A stretch of DNA of 64,000 nucleotides from Amycolatopsis umgeniensis (GTDB lineage: Bacteria > Actinomycetota > Actinomycetes > Mycobacteriales > Pseudonocardiaceae). Below are positions 457 to 41,654 of this stretch, one piece after another (the stretch's first letter is position 1; every line of letters starts with the position of its first letter). The stretch is from assembly GCF_014205155.1 (NCBI RefSeq), contig NZ_JACHMX010000001.1, forward strand, positions 6,634,001 to 6,698,000, given 5' to 3'. Under the pieces are notes generated by a model. The model was not told the origin of the DNA. It did not search any database and saw only the letters and a list, made by a program, of their open reading frames with translations. A program made the translations under genes and the position numbers.

Positions 457-1155
457 TCAGGCCGCGACGCGAAATTTCTCCGTGACGAGATCCGCGCCGG
501 GCGGATCCACCACGATCGCGGTGGCGTTGTCGGAGCCACCGAGCGAGATCGCCGTCCGCACCAGCTCCGTGGCCGCCCTGCCCGGCATCCCGAGGATGTC
601 GAGCATGGTCGGACCGCTGAGCGTCTTGTGCACACCGTCGCTGGTGAGCAGAAGCCCACCGGTGGAGACGGTGGCCGTGCCGATCTCGTGAGCACCGGCC
701 GTGCGGACGCTGGTGGTGACGACGTGTTCCATCCGCGGTGTCACGGGCTGTTCGTGGTCGCGGAAGTACTGCGCGAGCGTATGGTCCTTCGTCACCTGCC
801 GCACGGTGTAACCGTCCCAAGCGTACGCCCGCGCGTCCCCGACCCACGCGATGCCATACCCCTCGTCGTTCTGGACGGCCACGACGAGGACGCAGTCACC
901 GGTCCCGCCGAGCTCGAGCACAGCGCGCTGAGCAGCGAGAACAGCCTCGACAGCGCCTCGCCCGACCGGCGACCGGGCCGCCGCCGAAGCCGCCGTCCGC
1001 GCCGCGTATCCCGCGTTCGGGTGATCTCCGACTCCGTCGGCCAGCGCGAACACGATCCCCGCCCCGCCCGCGGCCGCGTACGCTCCGACAGCGTCCGCGT
1101 TGTGCTCGCGCGGCCCCTGCGCGCTCGCCGTGTGCCAGTGTGGAAGTTCCCTCAT
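457..1155 (-). CDS. PP2C-family Ser/Thr phosphatase
   Basis: This 232-residue soluble protein has the PPM/PP2C fold, which uses two metal ions to dephosphorylate Ser/Thr phosphoproteins. Visible motifs are HNADAV near residue 18 (the usual RxxNED region), ALADGVGDH (metal-binding Asp), AWVGDARAYAW, LLTSDGVHK and GGSDNATAIVV near the C-terminus. The ATG at 1155 is chosen because AGGAG lies 6 bases before it; the frame stays open further upstream but only through the repeat array. There is no membrane segment and no adjacent kinase, so the partner is unknown. It resembles the phosphatases that counteract Hanks-type kinases or sit in stress-sigma switches; that role is inference. Confidence 0.85.
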   Translation of the reverse strand: MRELPHWHTASAQGPREHNADAVGAYAAAGGAGIVFALADGVGDHPNAGYAARTAASAAARSPVGRGAVEAVLAAQRAVLELGGTGDCVLVVAVQNDEGYGIAWVGDARAYAWDGYTVRQVTKDHTLAQYFRDHEQPVTPRMEHVVTTSVRTAGAHEIGTATVSTGGLLLTSDGVHKTLSGPTMLDILGMPGRAATELVRTAISLGGSDNATAIVVDPPGADLVTEKFRVAA

Positions 1156-1476
1156 GGTCTTCTCCTCACCCCTGGGTGATCCCTGCTTCCAGCATCCGCC
1201 TGTTTGCTGAGTGCGGCCTGAGGGGTGGCTGTCGGGTGGATGTGAGCGAGCACCGCGGTCACGTGAGTTCCGTCCCTGATCACGCGAGTTCCGTCTTTGA
1301 TCACGCGAGTGCGGTGCCTGATCACGCGAGTGCGGTGCCTGATCACGCGAGTCCCGCCTTCGCCCTGATCGCGAGCCCGGCACACCTGCCCGTGGGTTGG
1401 GTGGGTCGTGAGTGGCGCGGCACCGCACTCGCGTGACCAGGCCCGGATCTCGCGTGATCAGGGACCGCACACGCGA
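1156..1476. other. Intergenic region filled by a 21-bp periodic array
   Basis: No gene is seen in these 321 bases. Most of the space is the repeat array described separately (1257-1480). Bases 1156-1256 hold the ribosome-binding site of the phosphatase gene and presumably its promoter, but I see no clear -10/-35 pair. Confidence 0.7.
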
Positions 1477-1480
1477 TCAG
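1257..1480. repeat. 21-bp periodic array, locus 1 (GATCACGCGAGT units)
   Basis: Five copies of a 12-bp unit (GATCACGCGAGT; the first reads GGTCACGTGAGT) start at 1257, 1278, 1299, 1320 and 1341, exactly 21 bp apart, with 9-bp spacers such as GCGGTGCCT. After about 74 bases the same unit returns in opposite orientation at 1427 (ACTCGCGTGACC), 1448 (TCTCGCGTGATC) and, degenerate, 1469. The inverse copies mirror the forward ones around 1389.5, and the spacers are also roughly complementary, so the whole is a long interrupted inverted repeat. It runs into the stop codon of the GT39 gene (1477-1479). Confidence 0.9.
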
Positions 1481-3360
1481 GAGAGCAGGTTGTAGACGGT
1501 CTGTTCGCCCACCGTGGTGGCGGTGAAATTCGCCGCGACCCATTCGGAGATCTCGTTCGAGCCGCCGCCGGGGCCACCGCCGCGGCCGCCTTCGACGTAG
1601 TAGGTGATGTCGCCGTTCGCCACGTACTGCTGGAATTCCGCCAGCGTCGGCGCCGGATCCGAGCCGCTCCAGCCGCCGATGCCGATCACCGACTTCCCGC
1701 TCGCGAGTTCCAGGTTCGCCGCCGACTGCGAACTCGACGTCGCCGCCGCCCACTTCGTCGTGGTCGCCGCGAGCACCGTCCCGAGTTCCGCCGACGAGCC
1801 CTCCTCCATGCCCATCCCGCCCATGCCCCGCGGCTCGCCACTCGAGGCCGGGCCGGAGGTCGGGATCGAACCGGAATGCGCTTGCGAAGCGGTTTCGACG
1901 CCGTACGCGGTGGTGCCGAGGCCGACGGTCAGCACGGCGACGGTCGCGACCACGGCGACGAGTTTGCGCATCGGCGGGACACCCACCAGGACGACGGTCG
2001 CGGTCACCAGGCCGAGCCCGACGATGATCCAGCGCAGCGCGGGCAGCCAGCCGGAATCGCGGTCGAGCAGGATGTACGCCCAGACAGCGCTCGCCGCGAT
2101 CATCAGCGACAGGAACACCCTCGGCGCGAGATGTGCCCGGCCGCGCCATAGCGAGGTTCCGGAGATCGCCACCACCGCGGCGATCGACGGCGCCAGCGCG
2201 ACGGCGTAGTACGGGTGCACGATGCCGCTCATGTAGCTGAACACCAGCGAGGTGACGAGCATCCAGCCGCCCCAGACGATCAGCGCGGCCCGCGTCCGGT
2301 CGGTTCCGGCGGCCCGCCTGGTGAACCACAGCCCCGCCACCAGGCCGATCAGCGCGGCGGGCAGCAGCCAAGACACCTCGCCGCCGAAGCTGGCACCGAA
2401 CATCCGCGTCAGGCCGCTCTCACCGCCGAAGCCGACGTTCCCGCCGCCCATCCCCCCGCCAGTGGTAGCCACCATTTCTCCGCCGCCACCCGTGGTGCCC
2501 ACCGTCATCCCGCCGCCACCACGGCCGAAGATCCGGCCGAGACCGTTGTAGCCCAGCGCCAGTTCGAGCAGGCTGTCGTCGGTCGAACCGCCGATGTAGG
2601 GCCGTGAACCGGTCGGCCACAGGTCGACCAGCGCGATGAACCAACCCGCTGAGACGATCATCGCGACCAAGGCTCCGAGCAGATGAAGCAACCGTTTGCC
2701 CAGCGAGGTCGGAGCGGCGACCAGATAGGCGAGTCCGAAAGCGGGCAGCACCAGGAACGCCTGCATCATCTTGGTCAGGAAGCCGAATCCGATGGCGACA
2801 CCGGCGAAGGCCAGCCAGCGTGGGCCGGCCTTCTCGATCGCGCGGACCGTGCAGTACGCGCCGGCGATCAGCAGGAGGGTCAGCAGCGCGTCGGGGTTGT
2901 TGAACTTGAACATGAGCGCGGCGACCGGGGTGACGGCGAGCGCCGCCCCCGCGAACAGACCGGCGGCCGGTCCGGAGGTCCGCTTCACCGTCAGGTACAG
3001 CAGGCCGACCGAGGCGACCCCCATCAGCGCTTGCGGTGCCAGCACGGTGAAACTCGAGAAACCGAAGAGCCGCGCGAACGCCGTCGTGACCCAGAGCGCG
3101 GCCGGGGGTTTGTCGACGGTCAGCACGTTCCCGGCGTCGAGCGAGCCGAACAGCCACGCCTTCCAGTCCTGCGTGCCGGACTGCACCGCCGCCGCGTAGA
3201 ACGAGTTGCCGTAACCGGAGGCCGTCAGGTTCCAGAAGTACAGCACCGCGGTGGCGGCGAGCAGGCCGAAGACCGAGGGGCGGACCCAGCGGGCCTGTGG
3301 TTCGACGACGTTTTCCTCGACGGGGCCGGGTTCCACCCGGGAAGCGAGTGCGGTGGTCAT
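1477..3360 (-). CDS. ArnT/YkcB-like GT39 glycosyltransferase 1
   Basis: A 627-residue membrane protein of the GT39-type glycosyltransferases, which move a sugar from a polyprenyl-phosphate donor to an acceptor outside the membrane. About ten hydrophobic helices fill residues 30-475. The first outer loop carries an acidic/TVDKPPAALW motif near residues 75-87, typical of the ArnT/YkcB group. A Gly-rich low-complexity loop lies near 278-312 (GGGGEMVATTGGGMGGG). The C-terminal 130 residues form an outside domain (SVIGIGGWSGSD, TLAEFQQYV) shared with the paralogue at 4702-6555. It starts 4 bp after the GT2 stop and ends the kinase-GT operon. The acceptor cannot be read from the sequence. Confidence 0.85.
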   Translation of the reverse strand: MTTALASRVEPGPVEENVVEPQARWVRPSVFGLLAATAVLYFWNLTASGYGNSFYAAAVQSGTQDWKAWLFGSLDAGNVLTVDKPPAALWVTTAFARLFGFSSFTVLAPQALMGVASVGLLYLTVKRTSGPAAGLFAGAALAVTPVAALMFKFNNPDALLTLLLIAGAYCTVRAIEKAGPRWLAFAGVAIGFGFLTKMMQAFLVLPAFGLAYLVAAPTSLGKRLLHLLGALVAMIVSAGWFIALVDLWPTGSRPYIGGSTDDSLLELALGYNGLGRIFGRGGGGMTVGTTGGGGEMVATTGGGMGGGNVGFGGESGLTRMFGASFGGEVSWLLPAALIGLVAGLWFTRRAAGTDRTRAALIVWGGWMLVTSLVFSYMSGIVHPYYAVALAPSIAAVVAISGTSLWRGRAHLAPRVFLSLMIAASAVWAYILLDRDSGWLPALRWIIVGLGLVTATVVLVGVPPMRKLVAVVATVAVLTVGLGTTAYGVETASQAHSGSIPTSGPASSGEPRGMGGMGMEEGSSAELGTVLAATTTKWAAATSSSQSAANLELASGKSVIGIGGWSGSDPAPTLAEFQQYVANGDITYYVEGGRGGGPGGGSNEISEWVAANFTATTVGEQTVYNLLS

Positions 3361-3364
3361 GAGG

Positions 3365-4627
3365 TCAGCTCTCCATCTCGGTGGCGGGCCGTCGGCGGGA
3401 CGAGCGGAAGACCCAGCCGCGCAGCAACAGGAAACGCAGCACGGTGGCCGCGAGGTTCGCGAGCACGAGCGCGGTGATCTCGAGGGGCAGTCCCGGCGCC
3501 GTCATCGTGTGCAGCAGCGCCAGCGCGCCGCTGGTGAGCCCGAGCCCGAGGCCGAACACGACGAGACCCTGGAACTGGTGCAGCCCGGCGCCTCCCCGGC
3601 CGCGGATGCCGAAGGTCAGGCGCCGGTTGAGCGCGGTGTTGCCGATCGCCGTCACCAGCAGCGCGACCAGGTTCGCCGCCTGCGCGCCGGTGAACGTCCG
3701 CAACAGCAGGAAGAGCACGAGGTACGCGACGGTGCTCGCGACACCGATGGCGGCGAACCGCACCAGCTGCCGCACGAGGCTCGGCGCCACTCCCGGCGCC
3801 TGTACCTGGATCGGCGCGCGGCCGAGTTGTTCGCGCAGGCCGCTGATCGGGATCTGCCCGGTCAGCGTCGCTTTGGTCAGCCGCGCGATGCCCTTGAGGT
3901 CGGCGGTCGCGGTGGCGACGATGTTCACCGACGAGTCCGGGTCGTCGATCCAGTCGACCGGGACCTCGTGGATCCGCAGTCCCGCTTTCTGTGCCAGTAC
4001 GAGCAATTCGGTGTCGAAGAACCAGCCCGTGTCCTGGATGTGGGGGAGCAGCCGCTCGGCGACGTCGGCGCGGATCGCCTTGAAACCGCACTGCGCGTCG
4101 CTGAACTTCGCGGCCAGCGTGCCGCGCAGGATCAGGTTGTAGCAGCGGGAAATGAACTCCCGCTTCGGCCCGCGCACCACCCGTGCGCCGCGGGCGAGCC
4201 TGCTCCCGATGGCGAGATCGGAGTGCCCGGACAGCAGCGGTGCGATGAGGGGGCCGAGCGCGGCCAGATCGGTCGAGAGGTCGACGTCCATGTAAGCGAG
4301 CACGGGGGAGTCCGAAGTGGACCAAACGGCGCGCAAGGCACGGCCGCGGCCTTTCTCTTCCAGGTGGCGGACTTCGACGTCGTCGAACTCGCGGCTCAAC
4401 CGTTCGGCCACGTGCAGGGTGTCGTCCGTGCTGGCGTTGTCCGCGACGGTGATCCGGAACGAATACGGGAACTGCTCGACGAGATACGCGTGCAGACGCC
4501 GGATGCACGGCTCGAGGTCGGTTTCCTCGTTGTACACCGGGATGACGACGTCGAGGACGGGGGATCCGGTCGGGGCGATGGCGTGGCGGCGGCCGGTGTC
4601 GGCGCCGGAGATGATCGCGGCTGTCAT
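3365..4627 (-). CDS. GT2 polyprenyl-phosphate sugar synthase fused to GtrA flippase domain
   Basis: A 420-residue two-domain protein. Residues 20-260 are a GT-A glycosyltransferase family 2 domain with VVIPVYNEE, DNASTDD and the metal/nucleotide motif YMDVDLSTD, like dolichyl-phosphate mannose synthases that load a sugar onto polyprenyl phosphate. Residues 290-410 hold four helices of the GtrA family, thought to flip or anchor the lipid-sugar. It is flanked by two GT39 transferases with a 4-bp gap downstream, so it probably makes their donor. An alternative ATG lies 18 bases upstream at 4645. The ATG at 4627 is preferred because a weak GAGA lies before it and because its distance to the upstream CACAG boxes (34 bp) matches the kinase gene. 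Confidence 0.88.
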   Translation of the reverse strand: MTAAIISGADTGRRHAIAPTGSPVLDVVIPVYNEETDLEPCIRRLHAYLVEQFPYSFRITVADNASTDDTLHVAERLSREFDDVEVRHLEEKGRGRALRAVWSTSDSPVLAYMDVDLSTDLAALGPLIAPLLSGHSDLAIGSRLARGARVVRGPKREFISRCYNLILRGTLAAKFSDAQCGFKAIRADVAERLLPHIQDTGWFFDTELLVLAQKAGLRIHEVPVDWIDDPDSSVNIVATATADLKGIARLTKATLTGQIPISGLREQLGRAPIQVQAPGVAPSLVRQLVRFAAIGVASTVAYLVLFLLLRTFTGAQAANLVALLVTAIGNTALNRRLTFGIRGRGGAGLHQFQGLVVFGLGLGLTSGALALLHTMTAPGLPLEITALVLANLAATVLRFLLLRGWVFRSSRRRPATEMES

Positions 4628-4660
4628 AACGTCAATCTCGGACATCGCGCTGAGGTCGGC

Positions 4661-4687
4661 TTGTGTCCCGCCTGTGTCCTCGCTGTG
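4661..4687 (-). promoter_or_regulatory. Triple 11-bp CACAG boxes before the GT2-GtrA gene
   Basis: On the minus strand CACAG (4683-4687), CACAG (4672-4676) and CACAA (4661-4665) are spaced exactly 11 bp apart, 34 bp upstream of the GT2 start. The same three boxes with the same spacing lie before the histidine kinase gene, and 16 consecutive bases (4661-4676) are identical. Direct repeats on an 11-bp period are usual for OmpR-family response regulators; the binding protein here is inferred. Confidence 0.6.
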
Positions 4688-4701
4688 TCCCGTCACGGGG
4701 T

Positions 4702-6555
4702 TCACCGGCTCAGGTCGTAGACGGTGACGCCGTCCACGGTGGTCGGTGTGTAGGTGGCCTGGACCCATTGGGCGATCCGTTCGGCCGCGTCGCTGCCGGT
4801 CTCCCCACGCATCATCATGCCCTCGCCGAGGAAGTAGTGGATCTGTCCACTTCGGACATACTCCTGGAACTGTTCCAAGGTGGGAGAAGGATCCGTGCCG
4901 TTGAATCCGCCGACGGCCATCACCGGCGCACCGCCGCCGAGCTGGTAGCCCGCCGCGTTGTTGGAGCCCACCGTCGCGGCCGTCCAGGTGTAGTCCGCGC
5001 TGTCCTGCCGCAGGAGGGCGGCGAGGCTCTCGCCGGGCAGGCTCGTCCCGAGCAGCCCGCCGCCGGGGCCGCCCATTCTCATACCCCGCCCCGTTTCCGG
5101 CCCGGCGGAAGGGAGTGCGCCGGAATGAGGGGTCGCGGCCGTCGCGACCGTGTACGCGCCGGTGCCCGCGAGAACGGTGATCAGGGCGCCCACGGCGACC
5201 AGACGTCGTGCCGCGCCGGGCAAACTTGCCGCGAAGAAGGCCAGGAACGCGAACAAGAGACCGGCAACGAGGATCGCGATCGCCAAGCCGGGAAGCCAGT
5301 CGGATTGGCGTGACAGCAGGAGATACGCGGTCAGCGCGGTCAAGCCGATCCCGGCGCTCGAGGTGCCCGCGGCGGCCGGATTCCCCCGTGCGCGCCACAA
5401 CCGCGTCCCCGCGATTCCGATGAGCGCGCCGATCGCCGGGGCGAGCGCGATCGTGTAGTACGCGTGGATGATGCCGCCCATGTAGCTGAACACCACGGCG
5501 GTGCCCAGGAACCAGCCGCCCCACAGGATCAGCGCCGCGCGGCCGCGGTCGGTGCGCTCGGCGTGGCGCGTGAACCACAGTCCGGCGGCCAGCGCGATGA
5601 CGGCGGCCGGGAGCAGCCAGGCGATCCCGCCCGCCATCTCGCTGCCGAACAGCCTGTCCCAGCCGGTGCCGCCCCAGCCGCCGTTGCCACCCCCGCCGAC
5701 ACTGCCGACCTCGTCACCGGTGATCCGGCCGAGACCGTTGTAGCCGAAAGCGAGTTCCCACAGACTGTTCTCCTGCGAGCCGCCGATGAACGGCCGGTCG
5801 GCGGCGGGCCACAGCGCGACGACGGCGAGGTACCAGCCGGCGGAGACGAGGGTCGCGACCAGAGCCCCGGACAGATGCAGCAGGCGGCGGCCCACCGACG
5901 TCGGCGCGGCGATCAGATACGCGAGCCCGAACGCGGGCAGCACCAGGAACGCCTGCAGCATCTTGGCGAGGAAGCCGAAACCGACGGCGACCCCGGCCAG
6001 CGCCAGCCAGCGCGGGCTCGCCTTCTCCAGCGAGCGGACGACGCAGTAGGCGCCCGCGGTCAAGAGCAGGACGAGCAGCGCGTCGGGATTGTTGAACCGG
6101 AACATCAGCGCGGCGGCCGGCGTGAGCGCGAGGACCGCGCCCGCCAGCAGACCCGCGGCCGGGCCGGAAGTCCGCCGCACCGCCGCGAACAGCAGGGCCA
6201 CCGAGCCGACGCCCATCAGCGCCTGCGGAACGAGGACGCTCCAGGCGTTGACGCCGAACAGACGCGCGGAAAGGCTCATCACCCACAGCGCGGCCGGTGT
6301 CTTGTCGACCGTGATCGCGTTCGCGGCGTCGCTCGATCCGAAGAACAACGCCTTCCAGCTCAGCGATCCGGCCTGCGCCGCCGCCGAGTAGAAAGCGTTG
6401 GCCCAGCCGGATTCGCCGAGGTTCCAGAGGTAGAGGACGGTGGTGGCGAGCAGAAGCGCGGCAAGGGAGGGCCGGACCCAGCGTGGGTCTTCGGGCCTGC
6501 CTCGGGCGGGTGGAGCGTCTTGATCGGCTTCGTCGCGGGAGGCGAGGAGGGTCAT
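4702..6555 (-). CDS. ArnT/YkcB-like GT39 glycosyltransferase 2
   Basis: This 617-residue paralogue of the 1477-3360 product has the same layout: a cytoplasmic N-terminus, about ten membrane helices (residues 30-475), the ITVDKTPAALWV outer-loop motif near residue 80, RFNNPDALL, and a C-terminal outside domain with VMAVGGFNGTDPSPTLEQF. The two copies diverge most at the N-terminus and in the Gly-rich loop, which is shorter here (GGGGNGGWGGTG). The start lies 4 bp after the histidine kinase stop, so the two are almost certainly co-transcribed. Two transferases around one donor synthase suggest two acceptors or linkages for the same lipid-linked sugar (inference). Confidence 0.85.
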   Translation of the reverse strand: MTLLASRDEADQDAPPARGRPEDPRWVRPSLAALLLATTVLYLWNLGESGWANAFYSAAAQAGSLSWKALFFGSSDAANAITVDKTPAALWVMSLSARLFGVNAWSVLVPQALMGVGSVALLFAAVRRTSGPAAGLLAGAVLALTPAAALMFRFNNPDALLVLLLTAGAYCVVRSLEKASPRWLALAGVAVGFGFLAKMLQAFLVLPAFGLAYLIAAPTSVGRRLLHLSGALVATLVSAGWYLAVVALWPAADRPFIGGSQENSLWELAFGYNGLGRITGDEVGSVGGGGNGGWGGTGWDRLFGSEMAGGIAWLLPAAVIALAAGLWFTRHAERTDRGRAALILWGGWFLGTAVVFSYMGGIIHAYYTIALAPAIGALIGIAGTRLWRARGNPAAAGTSSAGIGLTALTAYLLLSRQSDWLPGLAIAILVAGLLFAFLAFFAASLPGAARRLVAVGALITVLAGTGAYTVATAATPHSGALPSAGPETGRGMRMGGPGGGLLGTSLPGESLAALLRQDSADYTWTAATVGSNNAAGYQLGGGAPVMAVGGFNGTDPSPTLEQFQEYVRSGQIHYFLGEGMMMRGETGSDAAERIAQWVQATYTPTTVDGVTVYDLSR

Positions 6556-6559
6556 GGCC

Positions 6560-8098
6560 TCAGGGTCGGATGCCGAGCTGGGGTGTGGTTGTGCCGAACC
6601 TGTGCACCCGCTGTGAGGATTCGATCACCGGCAGATACACGGCGAATTCGGTGTGCCCCGGACGGCTGTGCACCTCGATCGTGCCGTGGTGGGCCACCAC
6701 GATCGCCGACGCGATCGCCATCCCGAGCCCGGTGCCGCCCGCCGTCCGCGAACGGGAGGAGTCGCCGCGGGCGAAGCGTTCGAACACGCTGGGCAGGAGT
6801 TCCGGTGCGATACCGGGGCCGTCGTCCGTCACGGTCAGGACGGCGTGCCCGGTGTGGGAGCGGCCCAGCGCGGTGACCACGGTGGTGCCGGGCGGGGTGT
6901 GCGTCCGGGCGTTGGACAGCAGGTTCGCCAGCACCTGGTGCAGACGCTGGACGTCGCCGCGGACGGTCAGCGGCCCGTCCGGCAGCCGCAGTTCCCAGCG
7001 GTGGTCCGGGCCCGCGACCTGCGCGTCGCCGACCGCGTCCGCGGTCAGCCGGGTGAGGTCGGCGACGCCCGCTTCGAGCGGCCGTCCGGCGTCGAGTCTC
7101 GCCAGCAGGAGGAGATCCTCGACCAGCGTCGTCATGCGGGCGGCCTCGGACTGGATCCGGGACATCGAACGCGCGACCTCCGGCGGCACCAGCGCGCTGC
7201 CGCGGCCGGCGAGTTCGGCGTACCCCCGGATCGCCGCGAGCGGGGTGCGGAGTTCGTGGCTCGCGTCCGCGACGAACCGGCGGACACGGGTCTCGCTGGC
7301 GTGCCGGGCTTCCAGCGCCTGCGCGATATGCCCGAGCATGAGGTTCAGCGCCGAACCGACCTGGCCGACCTCGGTCCGCGGATCGGTGTCGATCTCGGGC
7401 ACCCGCACGGAAAGCGCGACCTGGCCCCGGTCGAGCCGCATCGCCGACACCCGGCCCGCCGTCGCCGCGACGCGGTCGAGCGGCCGCAACGTGCGCCGGA
7501 CCGCGAACGCCCCGAGGAACCCGGCGCCGACGACACCCGCCGCCGCGACCCCGAACAGGATCCACCCGACCGTGGTCAAGGTGTCCTGCATCGGCCCGAG
7601 AGGGAGCCCTGTGACGACCACGCCGCCGGGGATCGAAACGGCCTGCACCCGGTAGTCGCCCAGACCGCCGAGCGCCATCGTCATCGGCGGCCGGCCCGAC
7701 GGGATCGCGAACAGGCCGGACTCCTGTTCGGCCGAAAGTCCTTGGGGGAGCCCTTGTACCGTCAGGACTCCCGCGTAGAGCACCCGATCACCGGAGAAGC
7801 GCACGCTCAACGTCCCCGACGCTTGGCCCGGCGCGTTGAGCGGGTTGGGGCCGGGGCCGGGCGAGTCCTCCGGCGGCCGGTTCGCGTAGTCGTGGGCACG
7901 GGCCGACGCGGCCGAGAGCTGCCCGTCGATCTGGCCGATGAGGAACGACCGCAGCGCGATCTCGCTCGCGACACCGATCACCAGGCAGACGAAGGTGAGC
8001 AGCAGCACCATCGAGCCGGTCAGCTTGGTGCGCAGGGAAAGCCGCCCGGGCCGGGACCACCGGCGCGGGCCGGTGGTCGGGACCGATCCGGGTGCCAT
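6560..8098 (-). CDS. Membrane sensor histidine kinase
   Basis: A 512-residue orthodox sensor kinase. Helix one is near residues 27-46, an outside sensor region spans about 50-175, helix two is near 177-200, followed by a HAMP linker, a HisKA domain with the phosphoacceptor His281 (DASHELRTPLAAIRGY), an N-box (LANLLSNARTH), a G1 box (VTDDGPGIAP) and a G2 box (GGTGLGMAIA). No response regulator gene adjoins it or occurs elsewhere in the window, which is unusual for this class. It heads the operon with GT39, GT2-GtrA and GT39, so it may sense envelope state and control sugar decoration. The CACAG boxes upstream suggest control by its unseen cognate regulator. Confidence 0.92.
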   Translation of the reverse strand: MAPGSVPTTGPRRWSRPGRLSLRTKLTGSMVLLLTFVCLVIGVASEIALRSFLIGQIDGQLSAASARAHDYANRPPEDSPGPGPNPLNAPGQASGTLSVRFSGDRVLYAGVLTVQGLPQGLSAEQESGLFAIPSGRPPMTMALGGLGDYRVQAVSIPGGVVVTGLPLGPMQDTLTTVGWILFGVAAAGVVGAGFLGAFAVRRTLRPLDRVAATAGRVSAMRLDRGQVALSVRVPEIDTDPRTEVGQVGSALNLMLGHIAQALEARHASETRVRRFVADASHELRTPLAAIRGYAELAGRGSALVPPEVARSMSRIQSEAARMTTLVEDLLLLARLDAGRPLEAGVADLTRLTADAVGDAQVAGPDHRWELRLPDGPLTVRGDVQRLHQVLANLLSNARTHTPPGTTVVTALGRSHTGHAVLTVTDDGPGIAPELLPSVFERFARGDSSRSRTAGGTGLGMAIASAIVVAHHGTIEVHSRPGHTEFAVYLPVIESSQRVHRFGTTTPQLGIRP

Positions 8099-8132
8099 GC
8101 CTTCGAGCGTGCGCCGCGGTCGTATGCGCGTG

Positions 8133-8159
8133 TTGTGTCCCGCCTGTGAGCCCGCTGTG
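8133..8159 (-). promoter_or_regulatory. Triple 11-bp CACAG boxes before the histidine kinase gene
   Basis: On the minus strand CACAG (8155-8159), CACAG (8144-8148) and CACAA (8133-8137) repeat every 11 bp, 35 bp before the kinase start. A weak promoter could be TCACAG with CATACG (8121-8126) at 17-bp spacing, overlapping the middle box. The arrangement is the same as at 4661-4687. Confidence 0.6.
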
Positions 8160-8198
8160 CGGTCCGGTGGTGCACGGGCGCTTCACAGTGAAGGCGTG

Positions 8199-8302
8199 AC
8201 TCACGTGATCAAGGACCGAACTCGCGTGACCAGAGACGGATCTCGTGTGATCACGCGAGTTACGCCTCTGATCACGCGAGTTACGGGCCTGATCACACGA
8301 GT
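8199..8302. repeat. 21-bp periodic array, locus 2 (symmetric inverted repeat)
   Basis: Three units in reverse orientation start at 8199 (ACTCACGTGATC), 8220 (ACTCGCGTGACC) and 8241 (TCTCGTGTGATC). Three in forward orientation start at 8249 and 8270 (GATCACGCGAGT) and 8291 (GATCACACGAGT). The period is 21 bp in each arm. The array is two-fold symmetric about the TGATCA at 8248-8253, so the 104 bp can form one long imperfect hairpin. It sits 22 bp after the desaturase stop and about 100 bp before the kinase gene. Confidence 0.9.
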
Positions 8303-8324
8303 CACGGGTCGCGGAACCGACGAC

Positions 8325-10403
8325 TCAGGAGTCGTAGTCCACGGTCAGCTCGGCGGACGTCGCCACCGCCCGGCAGGTCAGGATCCGCCCGGCGGCGACC
8401 TCGTCGCCGGTGAGCGCGTAGTGCACGTCCATCCGGGCGCTGCCTCGCACCACCGTCGCGCGGCATGTGCCGCAAGCCCCGCCGACGCACGCGTACGGCG
8501 CGTCCACACCGTGCCGCAGCGCGGCGCTGAGCACGGTTTCGCCCACCGTCGCGGGGATTTCGGCGGTCTTCCCGCCGGCGGTCACCGTGAGCACCGGGCC
8601 CGGCCGCCGCGAGGGGCGGACGGGAAGCGCGCCTTGGAACAGCTCGAAGTGGATGTTCTCCTCGGGGACGTCCTTGTCCGCCAGCGTCCGGCGGGCCATG
8701 TCGACCAGTTCGCGCGGGCCGCACAGGAACCAGTCGTCCACCTTCGCCGGATGCAGCCGCGCCTGGAGCAGCGCGCGCAGGCGGGTGCCGTCGAGGCGGC
8801 CGCGCTGGTAGCGCTCGTGCGAGATCGCCAATGCCTCGCCGACGGTGTCGAACGGTTTCCCGATCCGCTGCGTGCGCAGATCCGGGTCGCGTTCGTCGGT
8901 GCGGTAGTGCACGACGTGCAGCCGTCCGCCCAGTCGCGCGGCGAGGACGCCGAGTTCGGCGGCGAACATCGTGGTGGCGCCGGAGGTGTTGACGTAGAGC
9001 AGGGTCGCCTTGCTGTTCGGCTCGTCCAGCAGGGTCGCGGTCAGGATCGAGAGGATCGGCGTGATCCCGCTGCCCGCGGCGAGCGCGACGTACCGGCCGG
9101 TGCGGCCCTGTTCCGGGGTTAGCGTGAACATCCCGTCAGGGGGGAGCACTTCCAGTTCGTCGCCCGCCTCCAGTTCGGTGGTGGCGAACGTCGAGAACGC
9201 GCCGCCGATCTGGTGCTTGATCGCGATCCGCAGCACGCCGGAGTCCGGTGTCGAGCAGATCGAGTAAGCGCGCCGCACCTCTTCACCGTCGACATCCGCG
9301 CGGATGACGAGATGCTGTCCGGGCGTGAACCGGAAGGTCTCCCGCAGCCGCTCCGGCACGTCGAACGTCACGGTGACGGCGCCCTCGCACAGCGGCCGGA
9401 CCTCGGCGACCCGCAGCGAGTGGAACCGGCTCGGCTGCCGGGGCTGCGGAGCGGGCGGCTCCTCGTCGAACGAGCCGGTGAGCTGCCGCCATTCGCGGTA
9501 CTCCGTGGACGTCAGTTCGCGGCCCCAAGCGGTCGCGATCGGGACGTCCCTGGCGAGGTAGGCGTCGCGGTTGTCCTTCCACGCGCGCAGGTACCGGTAG
9601 AACGGGATCGCCGGGTGGAGATGGTGCACCAGGTGATAGTTCTGGCACAGCATGATCGGCGTCATCAGCCATTCGAGCCCGACGCGGACGCGGGTGGCGC
9701 CGAACCGGTTCTGCCGCCGCGCGCCGAGGTCGTGATGGGGGAGCCAGTCGAACCACCAGGCCAGTACGGCGAGGCCGACGCGCTGCGGGATCAGGTAGAC
9801 CACCAGCAGTTCCCAGCCGTGGCCGGTCGCGGTCAGCCAGGCGAACGCGGCGAGGCTCAGCAGGACGACGGCCGCGGTCTCGACGCGTTCCGCCGGTGGC
9901 CGCGTGCGCTGCCGCGCCACGTAGAAGCGGGCGTACCAGAAGTCGATCGTCAGCCACCGCAGCGGCAACTGCCACCAGGGGCCGTGCGCGGTCCAGGCGT
10001 CGGGATCGGTGTACGCGTCCTCGTTGGTGTTGCGATGGTGTTCGAGATGGATGTAGCGCACCAGGGAAAAGGCCCCGTAGCTCGCCACGAACGGCATCGC
10101 GAGTCTGCCGAGCAGTTCGTTGACCCAGGTGAGCTGTCCGGCCGCGTGGTGCGTCGACTCGTGCAGCACGGTGAACATCGTGAAGGTGACGAGCGCGTGC
10201 AGCGGGATGGTCACCCACAGCGGCGCGGCCTCGTTGACCACCAGCCAGGTGGCGCCCGTCCAGACCATGGCCCCGCCGGTGAACAACAGCACCGTCGGCA
10301 TCGAGACGACGGGCAGCGGGATCCGCGGGTTGGGCACCCCGCGTCTCGGTGTTCTCTCGGCCAGTTCCCCCGTGTCCTCGGACCGGGTGGCGGCGACGGT
10401 CAT
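8325..10403 (-). CDS. Membrane desaturase/hydroxylase fused to ferredoxin reductase
   Basis: This 692-residue protein joins an electron-transfer chain to its oxidase. Residues 1-330 are a membrane di-iron fatty-acid desaturase/hydroxylase with three histidine boxes: HESTHH (81-86), HLEHHRNTNED (119-129) and HLVHHLHP (257-264). Residues 347-590 are an FAD/NAD(P)H reductase (RRAYSICSTP, AAGSGITPILSIL, FLCGPRELVD). Residues 600-692 are a plant-type [2Fe-2S] domain with Cys639, 644, 647 and 677. In mycobacteria the equivalents (DesA3 and the Rv3230c reductase) are separate adjacent genes. The substrate is unknown: an acyl chain is likely, and a carotenoid or other lipid is possible. A promoter with an overlapping operator lies upstream. 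Confidence 0.9.
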   Translation of the reverse strand: MTVAATRSEDTGELAERTPRRGVPNPRIPLPVVSMPTVLLFTGGAMVWTGATWLVVNEAAPLWVTIPLHALVTFTMFTVLHESTHHAAGQLTWVNELLGRLAMPFVASYGAFSLVRYIHLEHHRNTNEDAYTDPDAWTAHGPWWQLPLRWLTIDFWYARFYVARQRTRPPAERVETAAVVLLSLAAFAWLTATGHGWELLVVYLIPQRVGLAVLAWWFDWLPHHDLGARRQNRFGATRVRVGLEWLMTPIMLCQNYHLVHHLHPAIPFYRYLRAWKDNRDAYLARDVPIATAWGRELTSTEYREWRQLTGSFDEEPPAPQPRQPSRFHSLRVAEVRPLCEGAVTVTFDVPERLRETFRFTPGQHLVIRADVDGEEVRRAYSICSTPDSGVLRIAIKHQIGGAFSTFATTELEAGDELEVLPPDGMFTLTPEQGRTGRYVALAAGSGITPILSILTATLLDEPNSKATLLYVNTSGATTMFAAELGVLAARLGGRLHVVHYRTDERDPDLRTQRIGKPFDTVGEALAISHERYQRGRLDGTRLRALLQARLHPAKVDDWFLCGPRELVDMARRTLADKDVPEENIHFELFQGALPVRPSRRPGPVLTVTAGGKTAEIPATVGETVLSAALRHGVDAPYACVGGACGTCRATVVRGSARMDVHYALTGDEVAAGRILTCRAVATSAELTVDYDS

Positions 10404-40092: not shown

Positions 40093-41654
40093 ATGACCGC
40101 TTCCCACCACAACCGCCGCACGCTGCTCAAAGCCGGTCTCACCGGCGCCGGGGCCGTCGCGGGCGGACTGCTCCTCCCCGGGACCGCGACCGCCGCGCCC
40201 GGCGCCGTCCCGCTGCTCCGCCGCGACCGCCCCGTACTCACCCATGGTGTCCAGTCCGGCGACGTCACCACCGGCTCCGGCATCGTCTGGTCGCGCGCAG
40301 ACAGGCCTTCGAGGCTGATCGTGGAGGTCTCCAGGGATCCGTCGTTCCGTCACGCGCGCCGCGTGCGCGGGCCGGTGATGAGCCCGGAGACCGGCGGGAC
40401 CGGCAAGGTCCGCGTCGCCGGTCTCCCGCCGGGACCGAGATCCACTACCGCGTGACCGCCGAATCCCTCGACGGCCGCACGTGCGGCGAGGCCGTCACCG
40501 GCCGGTTCGCCACCGCGCCGCTCGGCCGCTCGGACGTCCGTCTGGTGTGGTCCGGTGACGTCGCCGGGCAGAACTGGGGTATCAACCCGGAACGCGGCGG
40601 TATGACGATCTACCGCGCGATGGCCGACCGCCGTCCCGACCTGTTCCTCCACTGTGGAGACACGGTGTACGCCGACGCGCCGCTCACCGAGACCGTCGCG
40701 CTGCCCGGCGGTCGCGTGTGGCGCAACATCGTCACCCCGGAGAAGTCGAAGGTCGCCGAGACGCTCGACGAGTACCGCGGCCAGTTCGCCTACAACCTCC
40801 TCGACGACAACCTCAAGCGCTTCACCGCGAACGTCCCCGCCCAGGTCCAGTGGGACGACCACGAAGTCGTCAACAACTGGTACCCGGGCGAGATCCTCAA
40901 CGATCGTCCCGAGTACACCGAGAAGCGTGTCGACGTGCTCGCCGCGCGGGCGTTCCAGGCGTTCCACGAATGGCATCCGATCGACCGCCGCCAGGCCGTC
41001 GACGGCCGCGTGTACCGCAATTTCCGCCACGGTTCCCGCGCCGAGGTCTTCGTGCTGGACATGCGGACGTACAAGGACGCCAACACCGCGGACCAGACCG
41101 CGCCGGGCCGGATCCTCGGTGACCGCCAGGCGCGTTGGCTCGTCGACGCGCTCGACCGCAGCACCGCCACCTGGAAGATCGTCCAGGCGGACCTCCCGAT
41201 CGGTCTCACCGTCCCGGACGGCAAGGGCATCGAAGGCGTCGCCAACGGTTTGCCCGGCGCGCCCGGCGGCCGCGAGACCGAACTCGCCTGGGTGCTGCGG
41301 GAGATCGCGCGGCGCCGGGTGCGCAACGTCGTCTGGCTGACCGCCGACGTGCACTACACCGCCGCGCACCACTACTCGCCGGATCGCGCTTCCTTCACCG
41401 ATTTCGACCCGTTCTGGGAGTTCGTCTCCGGTCCGCTCAACGCCGGCGCGTTCGGTCCGAACACGCTCGACCCGACCTTCGGGCCAGAAGCGGTGTTCGT
41501 GCACGCGCCGCCCGCCGCGAACACCTCGCCCGCCGACGGTTTCCAGCACTTCGGCGAGGTGAACATCGACGGACGAAGCGGCACGCTCACAGTCGACCTG
41601 AGGGACGCTACGGGCGCTTCGCTGTGGTCGAAGACCCTGCAACCTCAACGCTGA
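40093..41654 (+). pseudogene. PhoD-family phosphodiesterase/alkaline phosphatase, frameshifted
   Basis: Two adjacent frames together encode one PhoD protein. Bases 40093-40455 give a Tat signal (NRRTLLKAGLTGAGAVAG) and most of the N-terminal PhoD domain up to VAGLPPG. Shifting by one base at the GGG of 40431-40433 restores TEIHYRVTAESLDG and continues to 41654 with all metal-ligand motifs (VWSGDVAGQN, HCGDTVYAD, WDDHEVVNNW, WLTADVHYTA). One G seems missing from what was a GGGG run. The 3' frame has a GTG at 40452 overlapping the stop, but that would drop conserved residues. It is either a real recent mutation or a sequencing error; without the error it would be an exported phosphatase or phospholipase D-like enzyme. 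Confidence 0.85.

Follow-up and report, generated by a model that had tools for sequence, protein, structure and literature searches.

The PhoP regulator of Mycobacterium tuberculosis, a member of the OmpR/PhoB type, binds TCACAGC repeats separated by a 4-bp spacer, that is, on an 11-bp step; its dissociation constant (Kd) is 4.6 nM for a tri-repeat and 2.2 nM for a tetra-repeat as against about 19 nM for a pair, cooperative binding extends to three and four repeats, and the bases are contacted by residues N212, V213, E215, S216, Y217 and Y220 (accessible part of PMC4832192). In Bacillus subtilis, ykcBC is assigned to the YclJ and YrkP regulons and ykoST is under the control of YkoH-YkoG (accessible part of PMC5836110), so that two-component control of glycosyltransferase genes of this sort is a known kind of regulation. 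Here we describe a window of 64,000 nucleotides (the whole stretch of DNA that was analysed; contig NZ_JACHMX010000001.1) from the genome of Amycolatopsis umgeniensis, in which arrays of CACAG-type repeats precede the gene for an orphan histidine kinase and the adjacent genes for membrane glycosyltransferases. Judged from sequence, these boxes are very probably operators of a PhoP-type regulator encoded 2.65 Mb away, which would co-activate its own operon, the orphan kinase, the glycosylation genes and a gene for an HlyD-type efflux adaptor.

In its overall design, the system resembles that of M. tuberculosis PhoP: the candidate regulator is of the OmpR/PhoB type and the CACAG-core repeats recur on an 11-bp step in arrays of three or four. 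Unlike PhoP, it has a leucine in place of Ser216, the boxed genes encode a kinase, GT39 and GT2-GtrA glycosyltransferases and an HlyD protein, and the promoters look leaderless, with a single fixed spacing between box and -10 element. In class II activation by PhoB and PmrA, a repeat array overlaps the -35 region and lies beside a weak -10 element; in contrast to those promoters, the arrays described here have four units rather than two, and the start of transcription is predicted at the initiation codon. As with ykcBC and ykoST, as far as these are covered in the accessible part of PMC5836110, a lipid-sugar synthase and a GT-C transferase appear to be under two-component control, but unlike the two-gene operons of B. 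subtilis, which belongs to a different phylum, GT2 is fused here to GtrA and stands beside an orphan paralogous kinase.

Exact CACAG-N6-CACAG-N6-CACAA triplets are found on the minus strand at 8133-8159, before the kinase gene, and at 4661-4687, before GT2-GtrA, and have 16 contiguous bases in common (CACAGGCGGGACACAA). Both had been recognized correctly in the initial annotation, which also stated that the window contained no third copy and that two genes of the operon were boxed. A third exact triplet is nevertheless present at 6590-6615, within the 3' end of the kinase open reading frame (ORF) and before GT39a, at the same distance from the start codon, which brings the number of boxed operon genes to three. 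When up to two mismatches are allowed, the window has seven matches compared with 0.25 expected in shuffled sequences; these are the three exact triplets, the same three arrays shifted onwards by one unit, and an isolated match with two mismatches (40642-40667). The triplets are accompanied by a weaker fourth unit (CnnA) and by an nAnnnT hexamer at a fixed distance. The genes follow one another on the minus strand in the order kinase, GT39a, GT2-GtrA, GT39b; the last of these starts 4 nt past the GT2 stop codon and had no box of its own in any region in which it was found. GT2, GtrA and PMT/GT39 domains encoded together represent a three-component transmembrane glycosylation gene set.

The triplets of the window are far above chance. 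In the genome search that the initial annotation had proposed, the 9.2-Mb genome was found to contain five exact triplets, three in the operon, one by a dnaA-like ORF and one before the gene for an OmpR/PhoP-type regulator, the latter being the only exact one outside the operon at a promoter-like distance before a gene. Allowing one mismatch, there are 11 genome matches in total versus seven for the reversed pattern; with a longer pattern (the box, the fourth unit and nAnnnT, up to three mismatches) the numbers are 15 and three. Exactly four sites match the longer pattern perfectly, those of the kinase, GT39a, GT2-GtrA and the regulator.

The regulator gene (L036 7745-8494, minus strand, at about 3.986 Mb, with its ATG at L036 8494) has the exact box 34 nt before the ATG and adjoins the gene for a kinase of its own, which we refer to as HK2. 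Its product has receiver (PF00072) and winged-helix Trans_reg_C (PF00486) domains, both above cut-off, which places it in the OmpR/PhoB family, and its closest solved relative is M. tuberculosis PhoP (E = 1.2e-80). Four of the six PhoP base-contact residues are identical (N, I, E, L, Y, Y in the regulator), and the replacement of V213 by isoleucine is conservative. The recognition helix NIVELYISY was present in 53 of the 55 same-genus regulators read, and homologues among the matches listed are 96-98% identical. None of the best 25 NCBIfam matches of the regulator, HK2 or the orphan kinase reached an equivalog cut-off; one source labels an Amycolatopsis regulator of this family TcrX (among the matches listed). 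We take TcrXY, TrcRS and PhoPR to belong to the same broad branch of OmpR-type systems. The initial annotation had supposed that an OmpR-family regulator acts from elsewhere on the kinase gene and on an internal promoter, and the box before this distant gene, together with the boxed undivided operons of relatives described below, points the same way; its expectation that the regulator would be an orphan failed, as the candidate has the paralogous kinase HK2 at its side.

The same arrangement is conserved throughout the genus. Our sample comprised 60 genomes, 57 of which encode the kinase family (E <= 1e-60), and yielded 52 orphan-kinase regions and 55 regions upstream of the regulator gene, to which those of A. 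umgeniensis itself were added. A box with no more than one mismatch precedes the kinase in 53/53 promoters, GT39a in 51/51 and GT2 in 33/33 promoters with a readable start (a readable GT2 start was missing in 20 of the 53 regions), and the regulator in 56/56 regions, as well as in the G002 region, which was added later and conforms. In two genomes (G016 and G039) the GT2 gene is more distant, yet the box is beside it. Numbering columns from the start of the box, nAnnnT occupies columns 48-53 in 53/53 kinase, 50/51 GT39a, 33/33 GT2 and 56/56 regulator promoters (192/193 overall), and an ATG or GTG is located at column 60 or 61 in the same proportions (53/53, 50/51, 33/33 and 56/56, respectively), 6-7 nt past the hexamer. 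In promoters whose start codon is displaced by one base, the hexamer remains in register with the box and not with the ATG, and the fourth unit CnnA at column 33 is almost invariant (C 0.99, A 0.99). The fixed offset of nAnnnT and the start codon 6-7 nt further on lead us to predict leaderless promoters of the class II type, with transcripts that would start at the start codon and an array that extends towards the -10 element. A simple sigma-70 consensus scan of positions 3300-8400 found no promoter. As a separate observation, the region upstream of the regulator gene in one genome (G018, L164) carries two identical exact boxes 66 bp apart.

Outside this sample, named relatives were taken from the best 80 of 586 matching stretches. 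An undivided operon, defined as a regulator gene before the kinase and a glycosyltransferase gene start within 1 kb after it, is present in 29 of these 80 loci, and all of these but L209 and L221, hence 27, carry a box when one mismatch is tolerated; several genes are boxed in loci of Allokutzneria (L234), Saccharothrix (L201), Herbihabitans (L177) and A. bartoniae (L178). The 30 exact boxes, found in 18 of the 80 loci, all point in the direction of the gene; 26 of them have nAnnnT, 26 a start codon at column 60 or 61, and 25 both. Boxes with up to one mismatch number 73 in 44 loci, some being register shifts of four-unit arrays, and nAnnnT accompanies 47 of them, 44 with the start codon as well. 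Reversed patterns and steps of 9, 10, 12 or 13 bp gave no exact match and two with one mismatch in the 80 relatives. In a set of 120 genomes of the family, 57 of which encode the kinase family (E <= 1e-90), a perfect composite site occurs in 49/57 kinase-positive and 0/63 kinase-negative genomes (Fisher 1.3e-25, a value that overstates independence because the genomes are related). In the genus set, the box accompanies the kinase family in 57/57 kinase-positive versus 0/3 kinase-negative genomes; the reversed composite pattern is absent from both sets.

HK2 and the window kinase are paralogues, identical at 273 of 491 aligned positions (56%). The initial annotation had the kinase without an adjoining regulator gene, and this is confirmed: none was found by tblastn in the 52 same-genus orphan-kinase regions, which extend about 2.5 kb upstream (less for G050), or in the region of A. 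umgeniensis. In a tree of 98 kinase sequences (20 of the 53 orphan kinases, HK2 and 77 named relatives; quick method, no bootstrap), the orphan kinases form one group with L180 (Shimodaira-Hasegawa-like approximate likelihood-ratio test 99), and the Amycolatopsis HK2 group, Allokutzneria included, is separate from them. Four genomes of a neighbouring genus that lie outside the tree (G084, G121, G148 and G168) have two kinases each, the first with the orphan layout of box, kinase, box and GT39 and no regulator gene; on these layouts, the split of the operon apparently predates one genus label. In two genomes (G015 and G052; L119 and L120), the orphan kinase gene was found in two pieces, which points to a broken frame or an error in the assembly.

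The regulon of the initial annotation comprised the kinase and lipid-sugar genes; these are retained, and its reach appears to be wider, including the regulator operon, the HlyD gene and perhaps the gene divergent from the regulator and a PP2C-like gene. The HlyD-type efflux adaptor gene (L304 1501-2763) has a box with an altered third unit, the hexamer and, at column 60 or 61, a start codon that is predicted to be leaderless; all 30 promoters read have box, hexamer and start in these positions, and the gene is present in 43 of the 60 genomes. Before the PP2C gene, a degenerate but conserved array on the 11-bp step is followed by a hexamer in the -10 column and by a leader; the units of this array that match best in relatives are those proximal to the promoter. 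The gene divergent from the regulator (L036 8581-9264), whose product has no Pfam or NCBIfam match, is likewise preceded by four degenerate units, a hexamer in that column and a leader. Both are weaker candidates and possible further targets.

Other matches were rejected. The triplet of L002 was not counted as a member of the regulon, as it adjoins the ORF resembling DnaA (judged by eye); we take its repeats to be DnaA boxes. L305 precedes a gene of the acyltransferase/DUF418 type with its start at the wrong distance, and L306 and L307 have no convincing gene start. L312 (1501-1554) belongs to an ECF sigma factor gene with CTCAG repeats on an 11-bp step, which are probably sites of another regulator and look like an array of the MprA type.

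Several observations weigh against the assignment of the boxes to this regulator and its two kinases. The contact residue Ser216 of PhoP is replaced by leucine; the site of M. tuberculosis TcrX, a putative relative, was reported to be a mirror repeat, and no consensus is given for its other targets, unlike the repeat boxes seen here; TcrXY is described as autoregulated, as is predicted for our candidate (accessible part of PMC10883919). At the regulator gene, a possible Shine-Dalgarno sequence, AGGA, overlaps with the hexamer. No box with up to one mismatch was found in 36 of the 80 named loci, including 13 of Microbacteriaceae and 11 of Mycobacteriaceae, and eight of the 57 kinase-positive genomes of the family lack a perfect composite site. 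Boxed glycosyltransferase genes are also found behind HK2 in some Amycolatopsis loci (L178, L189 and L202), so that the operon is not cleanly divided, a pattern that fits duplication followed by uneven loss. Finally, although the orphan kinase and HK2 share 26 consecutive residues around the histidine (RVRRFVADASHELRTPLAAIRGYAEL), differences begin just after this run, and in a 26-residue DHp window shifted towards the C-terminus HK2 matches the orphan kinase at 21 positions and the next kinase of the genome at 19, in a comparison that covered 23 of the 28 kinases.

This last result bears on the possibility that the orphan kinase now pairs with another regulator and is merely co-regulated with the distant one. 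With another kinase reaching 19/26, the choice of partner is not settled by the DHp comparison, and the five differences from HK2 in the scored window, the overall identity of only 56% and the separate clades are all compatible with a change of partner. We nevertheless consider such a change rather unlikely, given the identical run around the histidine and the lack of a regulator gene in the 52 same-genus and four neighbouring-genus regions, which argues that no new partner was acquired beside the kinase. A common regulator for the two kinases is thus supported by the sequences but not proven.

An improbable alternative is that the sites serve mainly for repression, or that they are bound by another PhoP- or MprA-type regulator with an 11-bp code of the CACAG or CTCAG kind. 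Related codes do exist, as seen from the CTCAG repeats on the same step before the ECF sigma factor gene, and the genome has 61 Trans_reg_C matches, of which 30 loci were compared; 27 gave a segment, and about six of these were clearly not a recognition helix (for example L008, L010, L019, L022, L026 and L034). Among the approximately 21 believable helices, those of L017 and L018 match four of the five scored positions, but only the candidate regulator matches all five. It is also the only regulator whose gene lies behind a site (up to one mismatch, or up to three in the longer pattern), undivided operons unite it with the boxes, and the box is missing from all 63 family genomes without this kinase family. 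Moreover, the array lies beside a fixed -10 element, a position typical of activation, as with PhoB and PmrA.

Relative to the kinase ORF, the array before GT39a is internal in 37 genomes, spans the stop codon in seven and lies downstream of it in six (one doubtful), which speaks for selection at the DNA level; the position script left three arrays unlocated (L095, L105 and L107), though the box search found one in each, and its reading of L120 is possibly distorted by the broken frame. In a synonymous-site test, the box window in the kinase tail ranked about 18th of 487, from the 14 closest sequences, which are too alike, the other 37 being too divergent at the tail. Chance or protein-coding constraint can be dismissed as an origin of the arrays, for although one of them lies within the kinase ORF, where codon use is not clearly exceptional, the array before GT39a persists on either side of the stop codon, the same array recurs before four different genes in one fixed geometry, and the reversed pattern is absent from all family and genus genomes searched.

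If the boxes are operators of the distant PhoP-type regulator, its phosphorylated form would bind the 11-bp repeats in tandem, two strong units, a third one and a weak fourth nearer the -10 element, and would recruit RNA polymerase at the nAnnnT element that starts 22 bp past the triple box. The resulting mRNAs would be leaderless, with transcription starting at the initiation codon or within one base of it. We infer activation rather than repression, of the regulator's own operon, the orphan paralogous kinase, GT39a, GT2-GtrA and the HlyD-type efflux gene, with GTb being transcribed by read-through from GT2-GtrA. At the outer face of the membrane, the products of GT2-GtrA and the GT39 genes would both synthesize and use a lipid-linked sugar. 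An ancestral regulator-kinase-glycosyltransferase operon would have been duplicated, with subsequent partial loss: one copy kept the kinase and glycosyltransferases and lost the regulator, and the other kept the regulator and its kinase, in some species with glycosyltransferases too. The orphan kinase was probably retained because it gives the same regulator a second input, and it would pass its phosphoryl group to that regulator.

Table 1. Features of the operon and its promoter regions in the window
Feature	Position	Strand	Details
Orphan histidine kinase	6560-8098	-	HAMP, HisKA, HATPase_c domains; no regulator gene adjoining
Four-unit 11-bp array before the orphan kinase	8123-8159	-	CACAG-CACAG-CACAA-CATA
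Predicted -10 hexamer of the kinase	8106-8111	-	CACGCT, 7 nt before ATG
GTa (GT39a), GT39-type membrane glycosyltransferase	4702-6555	-	PMT_2 + YkcB_C
Third array, inside kinase ORF 3' end	6579-6615	-	CACAG-CACAG-CACAA-CCCA
Predicted -10 hexamer of GT39a	6562-6567	-	GACCCT, 6 nt before ATG
GT2 glycosyltransferase fused to GtrA membrane domain	3365-4627	-	domain matches
Array before GT2-GtrA	4651-4687	-	CACAG-CACAG-CACAA-CTCA
Predicted -10 hexamer of GT2-GtrA	4634-4639	-	GAGATT, 6 nt before ATG
GTb (GT39b), second GT39-type membrane glycosyltransferase	1477-3360	-	PMT_2 + YkcB_C
PP2C-like gene	457-1155	-	Pfam PP2C_2 20.3 bits, under curated cut-off 24
Degenerate four-unit array before the PP2C gene	1191-1244	-	CACAT-GACAG-CTCAG-CTCAG + GATGCT at -10 column

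The coordinates are collected in Table 1. Upstream of the kinase, the window encodes a fatty acid desaturase fused to an FAD/NAD/2Fe-2S reductase (8325-10403), a homologue of which is also found upstream in many of the same-genus orphan-kinase regions fetched. The operon is bordered on both sides by intergenic TGATCACGCGAGT repeats (1277-1460 and 8199-8302), which occur in both orientations and for the most part with a period of 21 bp; the window has 11 matches with up to one mismatch versus 0.16 expected, and adjacent pairs number 25 genome-wide versus none for the reversed pattern.

In the literature searched, with subscription papers mostly outside it, we found no description of this actinobacterial regulon, of its rigid leaderless promoter form or of a split with a retained paralogous kinase, and the regulon is not described in the accessible part of PMC9739842. 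Tentatively, the arrays may represent a widespread actinobacterial promoter class, in which four 11-bp half-sites are combined with nAnnnT at a fixed position and a leaderless start codon, and which is read by one PhoP-type regulator. In Amycolatopsis, this regulator would be fed by two paralogous kinases and would induce both of them, so that a second sensor is recruited on activation together with lipid-sugar glycosylation and efflux, one of its operators lying within the coding tail of a kinase gene. In this case, DNA alone allows an orphan kinase to be tied to a specific distant regulator, and through the rigid, searchable signature of box, -10 element and start codon a regulon that includes glycosyltransferases with no assigned target becomes visible in several actinobacterial families. 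If the assignment is true, it would provide a clear case of a two-component system that has been split in the genome while its regulon has stayed together, and would make it possible to test whether regulators are able to recruit an additional kinase.

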